Source of the DNA: Bacteroidota bacterium
GTDB taxonomy: Bacteria; Bacteroidota; Bacteroidia; 2-12-FULL-35-15
NCBI GenBank assembly: GCA_017303895.1
Contig: JAFLBF010000007.1
Coordinates: forward strand, 62,001-126,000
Direction: 5' to 3'
Length of the DNA stretch: 64,000 nt
Notes under the pieces: generated by a model
The model's database searches: none
What the model saw: the letters and a program-made list of their open reading frames with translations, nothing else
Told to the model about the DNA's origin: nothing
Shown: positions 19,858 to 34,493 of the stretch, piece by piece
How positions within the stretch are numbered: position 1 is the stretch's first letter
Layout: each line of letters opens with the position of its first letter
Made by a program: the position numbers and the translations under genes

Positions 19858-20565
19858 ATGAAATATAAACGCATTCTCTTGAAACTTAGTGGTGAGTCAC
19901 TAATGGGTAATAAACAGTTTGGTATCGATAATGAGCGTTTGGCTCAATATGCGAAACAAATAAAGGAAATTGCTGATATGGGTGTTCAGGTGGCAATTGT
20001 GATCGGTGGTGGAAATATTTTCAGAGGTATTCAAGCCGAAGAAGGTGGAATGGACCGTGTTCATGGTGATTATATGGGAATGCTTGCCACTGTGATCAAC
20101 TCAATGGCTTTACAATCGGCATTGGAAAAAACAGGAATGGAAACCCGTTTGCAATCCGCTATTAAAATGGAACAGATCTGTGAGCCATTTATCCGTAGAA
20201 AAGCGGTTCGTCATTTAGAAAAAGGACGTGTTGTTATTTTCGGTGCAGGTACAGGAAACCCTTATTTTACAACCGATACTGCTGCTACATTAAGAGCTAT
20301 AGAGATTGAAGCAAATGTGGTACTTAAAGGAACACGCGTGGATGGTATCTATACAGCCGATCCTGAAAAAGATAAAACAGCTACAAAATATGATGTGATC
20401 TCTTTTGATGAAGTATATGCGAAAGGCTTAGAAGTAATGGATATGACCGCATTTACTTTGTGTAAAGAGAATAAGTTGCCGATCATTGTTTTTGATATGA
20501 ACAAGCAAGGGAATTTGAAACGTTTAGTGGATGGTGAAAAGGTAGGAACCTTGGTAGATCTGTAA
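19858..20565 (+). CDS. pyrH: UMP kinase
   Basis: PyrH phosphorylates UMP to UDP. The 235-residue amino-acid-kinase-fold protein begins [17 protein letters not shown], followed by [10 protein letters not shown] and [13 protein letters not shown], all family hallmarks. It forms the common tsf-pyrH-frr neighbourhood, with frr 41 bases downstream. Confidence 0.97.
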
Positions 20566-20606
20566 TTTTAGAATAAATTTGTAAAACAATTTCAATAAAT
20601 AACGAT

Positions 20607-21170
20607 ATGAACGAAGAGATACAGTTTGTGCTTGATAATGCCAAAGAGCAAATGGAAAAGGCCGTGAATCACTTGGAAGCGGAATTGGTAAAAGTGAGAG
20701 CTGGAAAAGCCAGTCCAACCATGTTGGAAGGAGTAATGGTTGATTATTACGGATCAAAAGCTCCTTTGAACCAGGTAGCAAATGTTAATACAGCCGATGC
20801 CAGAACATTAGTGGTACAGCCATGGGAAAAATCAATGTTAACACCAATCGAGAAAGCTATCCAAGCAGCTAATCTGGGTTTAAATCCTCAAAACGATGGT
20901 GTGATCATACGTATTCTTGTGCCAGCATTAACAGAGGAGCGAAGAAAAGACCTTGTTAAAAAAGCAAAATCGGAAGCAGAAAATGCGAAAGTGAGTTTAA
21001 GAACGCTTCGTAAAGATGCAAATGAAGCTTTGAAAAAATTGCAAAAAGATGGAATGCCCGAAGATGAAGTGAAAGAAGGAGAAGGGAAGGTTCAAGTGTT
21101 GACTGATACTTATGTGGCGAAATGCGATAAACATTTAGAAGTAAAAGAAAAAGAGATCATGACCGTTTAA
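20607..21170 (+). CDS. frr: Ribosome recycling factor
   Basis: The 187-residue protein has the RRF pattern: LVKVRAGKASPTMLEGVMVDYYGS near the N-terminus, QPWEKSMLTPIEKAIQAANLGLNP in the middle and LTEERRKDLVKKAKSEAENAKVSLR before the C-terminal helix. It releases ribosomes from mRNA together with EF-G. A terminator follows directly. Confidence 0.97.
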   Translation: MNEEIQFVLDNAKEQMEKAVNHLEAELVKVRAGKASPTMLEGVMVDYYGSKAPLNQVANVNTADARTLVVQPWEKSMLTPIEKAIQAANLGLNPQNDGVIIRILVPALTEERRKDLVKKAKSEAENAKVSLRTLRKDANEALKKLQKDGMPEDEVKEGEGKVQVLTDTYVAKCDKHLEVKEKEIMTV

Positions 21171-21190
21171 TAGAGATAGATTTTTTTATC

Positions 21191-21217
21191 AGCCCCTGTA
21201 TTTACAGGGGCTTTTTT
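21191..21217 (+). terminator. Terminator after frr
   Basis: AGCCCCTGTA (21191-21200) and TACAGGGGCT (21203-21212) form a perfect 10-bp stem with a TT loop and a T run after it. Confidence 0.92.
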
Positions 21218-21221
21218 ATGC

Positions 21222-21301
21222 AAAAAAAGCAGCCTCTGAACGAACAGAAGCTGCTACCACATTAATCATTCATGTTCATTGATCCAATGAGCAAATGAAT
21301 G
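21222..21301 (-). ncRNA. Candidate small RNA antiparallel to frr
   Basis: The minus strand carries a complete small transcription unit with no long ORF. Promoter: TTTG (plus 21333-21336), 20 bases, then TTACTTTG (plus 21305-21312). Terminator: AGCAGC/GCTGCT plus TCTG/CAGA stem (21228-21255), followed on the minus strand by seven T (21222-21228). Between them is a nested hairpin: CATTCAT/ATGAATG outside (21267-21273, 21295-21301) and TCATTG/CAATGA inside (21276-21281, 21285-21290). The predicted RNA is about 80 nt. The only ORF is a five-residue MNMND. The hairpin could instead be a DNA operator for the 21389 gene. Function unknown. Confidence 0.45.
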
Positions 21302-21388
21302 TTACAAAGTAATTTGAATATTTCAGTTGTTACAAATCGAAAAAACAATAAAACTTACTAAATTTGATCACCACAAAGATCATTTATT

Positions 21389-22783
21389 TTGAGTCAATTA
21401 CATGCTTTAATTCAGACATTGAATGAAAGTGAGCTTACATTGCTTCGCTCTCAACGCCTCATTGGTAAAGAAAAAGAGGTGTTTGACTATGTAATCAAGA
21501 ATAAAGACACGGAACTTCCTGAAACCCTAAAAGTTCAGCAACTTCTTCAGCTTACGGAATCGCACTATTATAAGATCAATTCTGTTCTATTACGAAAATG
21601 TTATCAATTACTAGTACCTGAGGAAGCTATCGATCTACTTCTTTTTTTGCGCAGCAAGAATTTGTTTACATTGTTACGACATGAGATCCTTTCACAAGAA
21701 AAGAAAAATGGGGATAAAAATAATACCGCTTTTTACTTAAAATGTTTTCATCTCTGCATAGATTTTCCTTATAAATACTACGATGAAAAAATGACGGCTC
21801 TGTTCGGAGAAAAATACCTTCGTTCTAAAAAGGATTGTACACTTTCAGATAAATTATATGTGAAGTATCATTTAATGTTCTCTGAGGTAAACCGCACTGC
21901 AGCCCGTAAAAATCCCATCAAAGCATTGGGGTTTGGAATAAAGGATCTGTTTAAGCATGAAAAAGAATTAGAGAAAAGTAACCATCATTTAGCAAAATAT
22001 TATTTATACCGTAGTATATGCAGTTATTATTCTTATTATGAAAAGAATAATGATATGATCATTTCTTATTTGAAAAAAGCCATTGACTTGAAAGATCATA
22101 TTGCTTATTTCTTTTCAGTGAATATCGAACAGTTTCTTCAGTTGCAGTATGCCGATGCTTTGTTGAATAATAATGAAGTGGATCAAGCGGAAAAGATATA
22201 TGCATCAGCTTTTAAACAAGGTGTTGAGCCTTCTATGTATGGTTATTATTATCATTGTGAACAATATATTCTTGTTTTGATAATACAGAACGAGTTTGTA
22301 AAAGCAGAAGAGTTATTAAAAAAAGTGTTCGAACCTTGTATTCAAAATAAGATCGATATCTATGCGACCAGAGGAGCAATGAGCTATGTGAAGCTGTATC
22401 TGAGTTCAGGCGATTACAAATTGGCTTTGAAGTATTTGAATATTGGGAAAGTGATCAATGAAAAGACATTCTATTTGCCTTTTGATGTCCAATTGAGAGT
22501 TTTGGAAAATGTATATTTCTTTATGAAAAAGGATTATGATTTTGCGCTTCAATTAGCCAACCGGAATATTAAATTCATCCGCTCCCAGGAGCAAAATCCC
22601 GTATTGGAAGATTATGTGAAGATCTGGAGAATGATTATAACGCTCATTAATAAGATCTTGAAAGAGGAAGAGATCACGGAAAACATCAAAGAAGAAAATC
22701 GTTTGTTGACTCGTGAATATGCTAATCTATATTGTCGCTTGTTTCCTCTTATTTTAGAGCAGGCCGTGAATGAAACTACTTAA
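21389..22783 (+). CDS. Helical-repeat (TPR-like) protein of unknown function
   Basis: The 464-residue protein is almost wholly alpha-helical, rich in Tyr, Leu and Lys, with degenerate TPR-like pairs from about residue 170 (for example YADALLNNNEVDQAEKIYASAFKQG and MSYVKLYLSSGDYKLALKYLNIGK). No signal peptide, so cytoplasmic. The start used is TTG at 21389; the first in-frame ATG is far downstream. A TATTTTG at 21385-21391 resembles a -7 box, so the true start may be a few codons later (for example the TTG at 21419). The last four bases overlap the convergent radical SAM gene. No function is proposed. Confidence 0.75.
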   Translation: MSQLHALIQTLNESELTLLRSQRLIGKEKEVFDYVIKNKDTELPETLKVQQLLQLTESHYYKINSVLLRKCYQLLVPEEAIDLLLFLRSKNLFTLLRHEILSQEKKNGDKNNTAFYLKCFHLCIDFPYKYYDEKMTALFGEKYLRSKKDCTLSDKLYVKYHLMFSEVNRTAARKNPIKALGFGIKDLFKHEKELEKSNHHLAKYYLYRSICSYYSYYEKNNDMIISYLKKAIDLKDHIAYFFSVNIEQFLQLQYADALLNNNEVDQAEKIYASAFKQGVEPSMYGYYYHCEQYILVLIIQNEFVKAEELLKKVFEPCIQNKIDIYATRGAMSYVKLYLSSGDYKLALKYLNIGKVINEKTFYLPFDVQLRVLENVYFFMKKDYDFALQLANRNIKFIRSQEQNPVLEDYVKIWRMIITLINKILKEEEITENIKEENRLLTREYANLYCRLFPLILEQAVNETT

Positions 22784-23802
22784 GCCCAAACTTTGGTTCC
22801 TTCCGTGCAATTTTTGCAAATGTCAATTTCGGAGCGGGAGCGAAGTACAGATGCTCTAAATTTATTATAAGCTTCGGAATGCCATAGTGTTTCAAAATCG
22901 CTTGCTTTTAGATCGCCCAATTGATGTTGTGCATCCTTATCAAAACAGCATGGAACTACTAAACCATCCCAGGTGATTACTGTTGAATGCCAAAGTCTCC
23001 AGCAATGATTAAGCATTTCATTCTTGATGCTATATGAACCGTCTGTTTCTTTCTTATAGCGGGAATATTTATCAATTGTGGGGATCAGCCGGTTTCCTTT
23101 TTCGAAGTTATAGATCTGTGCTGTTTTGAATTTAACTTCATCCACTCCAATTTCTTTCGCGATCTTTTTAATATCCTCAATCTGATGTTCATTGGGTTGA
23201 ACAACCAAAAATTGAAAGATGACATGTGGAGTACTTGACTTTAATTCTTTTTTCCACTTAATAATGTTTTTTGCTCCTTCTTTAACTTTGTTGATGTCCC
23301 CACCGATCCTATATTGTTCATAGGTTTCTTGAGTTGTGCCATCAATGGAAATGATCAAGCGGTCCAAGCCACTCTCCACTGTTTTTTTTGCATTGGCATC
23401 ATTTAAATAATGCGCATTAGTAGAGGTGGAGGTATAAATGTTTTTTCTGGAGGCATAATTGACCATTTCTAAAAACTTTGGATTCAGAAAGGGTTCACCT
23501 TGAAAATAGAAGTTGAGGTGTAAGATTCTGTCGGATAGTGAATCAATAGTCTTTTTAAAGAAGTCAGTTTGAAGCATTCCGGTTGGACGGGTGAATTCTC
23601 TTTTCCCGCTTGGACATTCAGGACATCTTAAATTGCAGGAAGTTGTGGGCTCAATCGTAATGCTGATAGGTACTCCCCACTGAACAGGTTTTTTACTCCA
23701 TTTAGAAATATAAAAACTCATCAAAACTTTCAGTGCATTCAACATCCTCTTAAACCGGAGTTTATAGAATAGATTAAGTGCATCTGTTAGTCTTGAGTTC
23801 AC
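22780..23802 (-). CDS. Radical SAM / SPASM-domain protein
   Basis: The 340-residue protein has the cluster motif CNLRCPEC (Cys-x3-Cys-x2-Cys) in ITIEPTTSCNLRCPECPSG and a C-terminal SPASM-type region with HCWRLWHSTVITWDGLVVPCCFD and ICKNC. Such proteins modify peptides or cofactors using extra Fe-S clusters. No precursor peptide gene is visible nearby, so the substrate is unknown. The start is GTG at 23802; an upstream minus-strand TATCTTTA could be the -7 box. Its end overlaps the previous gene tail to tail. Confidence 0.85.
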   Translation of the reverse strand: MNSRLTDALNLFYKLRFKRMLNALKVLMSFYISKWSKKPVQWGVPISITIEPTTSCNLRCPECPSGKREFTRPTGMLQTDFFKKTIDSLSDRILHLNFYFQGEPFLNPKFLEMVNYASRKNIYTSTSTNAHYLNDANAKKTVESGLDRLIISIDGTTQETYEQYRIGGDINKVKEGAKNIIKWKKELKSSTPHVIFQFLVVQPNEHQIEDIKKIAKEIGVDEVKFKTAQIYNFEKGNRLIPTIDKYSRYKKETDGSYSIKNEMLNHCWRLWHSTVITWDGLVVPCCFDKDAQHQLGDLKASDFETLWHSEAYNKFRASVLRSRSEIDICKNCTEGTKVWA

Positions 23803-34406: not shown

Positions 34407-34493
34407 GGAGAGATGTCAGAGTGGTCGAATGAGCAAGCCTGGAAAGTTTGTATACTCGCAAGGGTATCGAGGGTTCGAATCCCTCTCTCTCCG
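34407..34493 (+). tRNA. tRNA-Ser (GGA)
   Basis: The 87-nt gene folds fully: acceptor GGAGAGA/TCTCTCC, anticodon stem CAAGC/GTTTG with loop CTGGAAA (anticodon GGA), long variable arm (TATAC...GGGTATC region) as in class II tRNAs, T arm GAGGG-TTCGAAT-CCCTC, discriminator G. CCA is not encoded. It is the only intact copy of three in this region. Confidence 0.95.

Follow-up and report, generated by a model that had tools for sequence, protein, structure and literature searches.

In the type I antitoxin layout, an sRNA gene is paired with one linked protein gene and the RNA base-pairs with the mRNA of this partner. Divergent antitoxin sRNAs of this kind are those of IstR-tisB and OrzO-zorO (cf. 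PMC3919570). Among the Bacteroidota, GibS of Bacteroides thetaiotaomicron is presented as the first trans-encoded sRNA of the Bacteroidetes with identified targets (PMC7366714). According to this source GibS pairs with start-codon regions, including that of the operon adjoining its own gene, and this adjacent operon was derepressed in a gibS mutant (PMC7366714). The same source gives the promoter consensus of the phylum as TAnnTTTG (-7) and TTTG (-33). Instead of Shine-Dalgarno sites, translation initiation in the phylum is described as depending on other signals (PMC9723704).

Here, we analyzed a stretch of 64,000 nucleotides from a Bacteroidota bacterium, referred to as the window (genome G000), in which a minus-strand unit sits between frr and a TPR-repeat gene. 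It consists of a promoter and a predicted transcript of about 79 nt that ends in a terminator (Table 1). We consider it very probable that this unit is a real sRNA gene that has not been listed before.

Table 1. Positions of the features at the sRNA locus in the window
Feature	Position	Strand	Remarks
frr	20607-21170	+	RRF by Pfam
Terminator after frr	21191-21212	+	9 pairs; convergent with the sRNA terminator
Predicted sRNA	21222-21300	-	about 79 nt; 5' end inferred from the promoter
Intrinsic terminator stem-loop of the sRNA	21228-21255	-	T-run 21227-21222
Linker AATGATTAATGTGGT	21256-21270	-	15 nt; likely pairing region; identical in 6/6 species
5' hairpin arm	21268-21300	-	weak in G000
sRNA promoter, -7 box TTACTTTG	21305-21312	-	TTA[AC]TTTG in 6/6 species
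sRNA promoter, -33 box TTTG	21333-21336	-	TTG in 6/6 species
TPR gene promoter TTACTAAATTTG	21355-21366	+	-7 box TAAATTTG 21359-21366; identical in 6/6 species
TPR leader stretch complementary to the linker	21370-21384	+	12/15 positions; predicted duplex -13.7 kcal/mol
TPR-repeat protein gene, divergent	21389-22783	+	464 aa; presumed target
Radical SAM/SPASM gene	22780-23802	-	convergent; shares its last 4 bases with the TPR gene

The sRNA promoter resembles the Bacteroidota consensus, from which its -7 box departs at one position, and the distance between the TTG and TTACTTTG is 20 bp. In a sigma-70-type promoter scan it was absent from the list, i.e. it is not sigma-70 like. The upstream region of the TPR promoter overlaps the -33 region of the sRNA by position; besides, the whole of TTACTAAATTTG and not the -7 box alone is invariant in the six species. 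No closed minus-strand ORF of at least 50 aa overlaps positions 21222-21336. The predicted sRNA sequence had a single match in its own genome at E <= 0.001, which rules out a repeat or mobile element (REP, MITE). Rfam 15 gave no match at the gathering cut-off at the sRNA locus, nor in L081, L043 and L051, and each of the 17 weak matches at the sRNA locus fell short of its cut-off by 20 bits or more. The only match in the window that reached its gathering score was a tRNA gene (34407-34493, plus strand). Among open-licence papers we found no report that could be linked to this RNA, and the sRNA likely represents a new family of a known working type.

The original prediction had described a minus-strand promoter with 20-bp spacing, a T-tailed terminator that faces the one behind frr, and a nested hairpin, all in a place without a minus-strand protein gene. 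These elements were recovered in our analysis, with the qualification that the hairpin, at the 5' end, did not exceed chance in the window species; it did so in four relatives. The terminator comprises 11 pairs, six of them G-C, a loop of 6 and six Ts, and alone reached a z-score of -6.8 in the window species. The minus-strand fold from 21340 to 21180, which includes both terminators, had an energy of -49.6 kcal/mol (z -5.8, none of 200 shuffles as good), and four terminator-like sites were counted in the region 20300-22600 compared with 1.2 (sd 1.2) in shuffles. For the 5' arm the z-score in the window species was -1.1 with 16% of the shuffles as good. The folding signal in this species is therefore that of the terminator and not of the 5' arm. 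Across the six species the 5' arm beat the shuffles (p < 0.05) in G001, G029, G033 and G009 and was no better than shuffles in G000 (p 0.16) and G010 (p 0.31). The linker between the two hairpins had a predicted mean unpaired probability of 0.66 in the window species and of 0.46-0.84 across the six.

Conservation of the structure in relatives, which had been suggested as a check of the prediction, was observed and supports it. The arms of the terminator vary in sequence yet pair across species, and the 5' arm exceeded shuffles in 4/6. Changes of pair type on both sides were found at 10 of the 11 stem positions of the terminator among seven sequences (G116 from outside the genus included), with each stem numbered inwards from the outermost pair of the individual fold and homology of register assumed. 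Pairing of a terminator is kept irrespective of any role of the RNA. Because the MAFFT alignments of the sRNA misregistered the 5' arm and some of the terminators, column pair counts were left out and no covariance model was built.

A search of the 36 genomes of the genus detected the TPR gene in six, namely G000 and its relatives G001, G029, G033, G010 and G009. In all six the sRNA unit adjoins the TPR gene in divergent orientation; five of these units were found by pattern and the sixth (G009) by reading the sequence. The distance from the TTG to the -7 box is exactly 20 bp in every species. The linker is identical in all of them while the TPR proteins are only 57-65% identical to that of the window, and this unpaired stretch, which the original prediction does not name, is the most conserved part of the sRNA unit. 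With promoter spacing, linker, terminator and T-run present in each of the six TPR-bearing genomes, the proposal of a small RNA gene withstood the comparison with relatives. A search with a 19-mer (up to two mismatches) in all 36 genomes, which misses variants of the G009 type, returned the five units and two other sites. These two (L046 and L047) were rejected as they lie inside transporter-like ORFs, where they form codons for INVV.

The original prediction had placed the gene between frr and the next gene. Its position beside the next gene, i.e. the TPR gene, was confirmed, but the tie to frr was lost, as the unit of G010 is located about 9 kb away from frr. Among the 30 frr loci examined, 25 belong to genomes in which no TPR match was found; the set included no frr locus of another five TPR-less genomes. 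The 13-nt core of the linker (up to one mismatch) was found at none of the 25 TPR-less loci within the flanks examined. Therefore, the sRNA gene goes with the TPR gene rather than with frr, and we rejected a link between the sRNA and frr. A radical SAM gene lies convergently downstream of the TPR gene in five of the six TPR loci (in G001 the contig ends) and likewise at the TPR loci of G116 and G078. At the TPR-less loci a motif search detected a convergent radical SAM motif at most 0.7 kb past the end of frr in 13 of 25 cases, a few of which leave room for a small gene between frr and the radical SAM gene. As frr and the radical SAM gene are near-neighbours in these TPR-less loci, the sRNA and the TPR gene seem to come or go together.

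Homologues of the TPR gene were detected in 12 of the 395 genomes of the class, with eight outside the genus. A relative of the sRNA was found beside only one of these eight, in G116, and no such unit was seen at the other seven; two of the loci, L076 and L084, apparently belong to the same genome and both were searched whole. In G116, TGATTAATGTGGT is followed by a 10-pair terminator, and the unit is divergent to the TPR gene. We saw no clear promoter of this unit, and inspection by eye revealed no linker match in the TPR leader of G116. Upstream on the same strand (L081, 2960-3090) lies CTAACCACATTAGC, which repeats part of the linker in inverted form. The two fold onto each other in a long hairpin, which could mask the linker in this genome. 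A looser class-wide pattern of linker core and four Ts, which is passed by G009 and was applied to 15 of the 36 genus genomes (11 of them TPR-less), occurred in 21 of the 395 genomes. Its single match in a TPR-less genome of the genus (G024) lies inside a long open frame. Outside the genus there were 17 sites in 16 genomes, of which only G116 was judged real, because it adjoins the TPR gene. Most of the others fall within long open frames or have no terminator and were rejected. The site in G117 (L100) has a terminator, but directly after the stop of another gene, and was taken as the terminator of that gene.

In the mechanism that we propose, minus-strand transcription of the sRNA by the primary sigma factor of Bacteroidota would begin near 21300 and end near 21222, behind the terminator stem. 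In the resulting RNA the 15-nt linker would be exposed between a 5' hairpin and the terminator hairpin. The linker is predicted to pair with the short TPR mRNA leader (about 20 nt) just 5' of the start codon, which would block the access of ribosomes and lead to less TPR protein; perhaps the mRNA would be destabilised as well. By analogy with GibS we infer translational repression at the TPR start codon. Whether pairing with the TPR leader is the main mechanism of the sRNA is, on the sequences compared here, evenly balanced. Moreover, the divergent promoters overlap upstream by position, hence transcription may also be reciprocal.

The leader of the TPR gene comprises 20-23 nt between the invariant promoter and the start codon, which differs among the species (TTG in the window species, ATG or GTG in two relatives). 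For the duplex of linker and leader we calculated -13.7 kcal/mol in G000, -8.8 in G001, -15.4 in G029, -9.5 in G033, -10.2 in G010 and -12.1 in G009. Their sum of -69.7 compares with -35.6 (sd 4.4) for composition-preserving shuffles, and none of 2000 shuffles was as good; the kinship of the species was left in, and the six tests are not independent because the species are related. Taken singly, the fraction of shuffles as good was 0.0025 (G000), 0.058 (G001), 0 (G029), 0.0425 (G033), 0.0365 (G010) and 0.0005 (G009), i.e. the complementarity is clear in three species and borderline in the other three (p 0.037-0.058). With ungapped matching the corresponding fractions were 0.0015, 0.46, 0.0045, 0.45, 0.087 and 0.021, which is the level of chance in G001 and G033. 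The leader was the best linker site of the whole mRNA in G000, G029 and G009, and in the window species it beat all 459 windows scanned in the body of the TPR mRNA. Windows equal to or better than the leader numbered 11 of 459 in G033, 6 of 459 in G010 and 10 of 237 in G001, whose TPR gene runs off the contig; this places the leader within the top 1.3-4.2% in these species. At the 48 ATG starts of ORFs in the window the best linker duplex was -8.5.

However, the linker is more conserved than the leader, its presumed target. Pairing with the TPR leader alone falls short as an explanation, because the leader differs between species and the linker does not, and there is probably at least one further partner. 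This could be a second mRNA or else a protein, for which the TPR protein itself is a candidate. It is possible, albeit rather unlikely, that such a partner is even the main one of a genuine sRNA and that the match to the TPR leader is minor or accidental. The drift of the leader beside an invariant linker would fit, as would G116, which keeps the linker core and not the leader match. By raw count, and as a hint at most, 3 of the 10 non-self complements with one mismatch in the six genomes are located at most 30 nt before a plausible start (L068, L069 and L070), and a fourth (L071) falls just behind one. In total number, however, the reversed control gave 15 one-mismatch complements against these 10. 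Complements with two mismatches (282, self hits included, against 226 in the control) were not clearly enriched either, and only 2 of 47 sites in G000 lie at leaders; classification of the two-mismatch sites covered two genomes, with all 47 listed non-self sites in G000 and 12 of 40 in G001. A wider regulon through near-complements was thus not borne out. In L069 (G001), CCATATTAATCATT lies 28 nt before a 177-aa membrane-like ORF and directly after a perfect TAnnTTTG box (TACTTTTG), a layout which is the same as that of the TPR leader. The linker-complementary CACATTAAT is found just upstream of an ORF which, from its sequence, we take to be aminotransferase-like (L194 in G000 and L195 in G001). 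This leader pairs with the linker at -14.2 in G000 and -9.8 in G001, but the match is gone in three other genomes (-3.3 to -4.8) among the five scored, the sixth (L199) being unreadable. Moreover, the association with the TPR gene in 6/6 genomes argues for a TPR-linked role.

The AlphaFold model of the TPR protein is all-helical with a mean pLDDT of 88, and a fold search against the PDB returned generic TPR matches (best E 9e-4; Rap protein 1e-3). In a more far-reaching scheme, which we consider doubtful at best, the sRNA and the TPR gene would form a self-contained two-gene cassette that is gained or lost as a unit, and the linker would both silence the TPR mRNA and bind the TPR protein in an autoregulatory manner. 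If true, such an RNA-protein cassette would be a new kind of sRNA-controlled switch for Bacteroidota.

Two further explanations dispense with RNA pairing. The leader motif and the linker form direct repeats on the minus strand within one intergenic region, and these TGTGGT-type repeats might be DNA sites of a transcription factor for both divergent genes. This is very unlikely, since the linker copy is invariant and the leader copy is not, the spacing of the copies varies (114, 116, 116, 131, 134 and 135), and the linker lies inside the predicted transcript where it adjoins the terminator. Alternatively, the linker could encode the beginning of a short leader peptide (MINVV...) that, together with an attenuator, controls a downstream gene. 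It contains ATG ATT AAT GTG GT in all six genus genomes, with a TTG start in G116, where the open frame over the sRNA unit continues into a co-directional gene that starts about 30 nt past the terminator; in G010 an ATG follows on the same strand about 45 nt past the T-run. In the window, however, no co-directional gene follows, the 15 nt show no synonymous codon variation, and the peptides of the genus would comprise 5, 8, 17, 25, 27 or 36 residues, several of them reading through the terminator, which renders an attenuator highly improbable. Finally, a mere terminator of stray antisense transcription without a functional RNA would agree with the weak 5' hairpin of the window species, but is hardly credible in view of the fixed promoter spacing, the invariant linker and the co-occurrence with the TPR gene.

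The preferred reading, an sRNA that pairs with the TPR leader, can be set beside the systems described so far. The locus shares with type I antitoxins the divergent sRNA gene next to one protein gene, but the partner is a 464-aa helical TPR protein and not a small hydrophobic toxin, and by partner size we rejected a classification as type I antitoxin RNA. Another conserved sRNA for which pairing with mRNA is predicted comes from the same phylum, namely Rfp18 of Flavobacterium psychrophilum, although it belongs to another genus and was compared by its description only (PMC9723704). If our reading is right, the locus would provide one more compact sRNA family whose linked target can be tested, in a lineage of which the six named records are all metagenome-assembled genomes. 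It would also be a further case of start-codon pairing where initiation does not depend on Shine-Dalgarno sites. As the design is simple, with one linker and one leader, tests by compensatory mutations are straightforward. In comparison with GibS, which is about 145 nt long and carries its seed in the 5' portion, the RNA predicted here has about 79 nt and a central linker between two hairpins; it also has one linked target candidate, the two RNAs being compared by description only (PMC7366714). Nevertheless, the linker is invariant in 6/6 species with a predicted unpaired probability of 0.46-0.84, as expected for a seed of the GibS type. Similar to GibS, the candidate would thus be an intergenic sRNA of Bacteroidota with a conserved single-stranded seed; pairing at start codons is described for GibS (PMC7366714) and predicted here.
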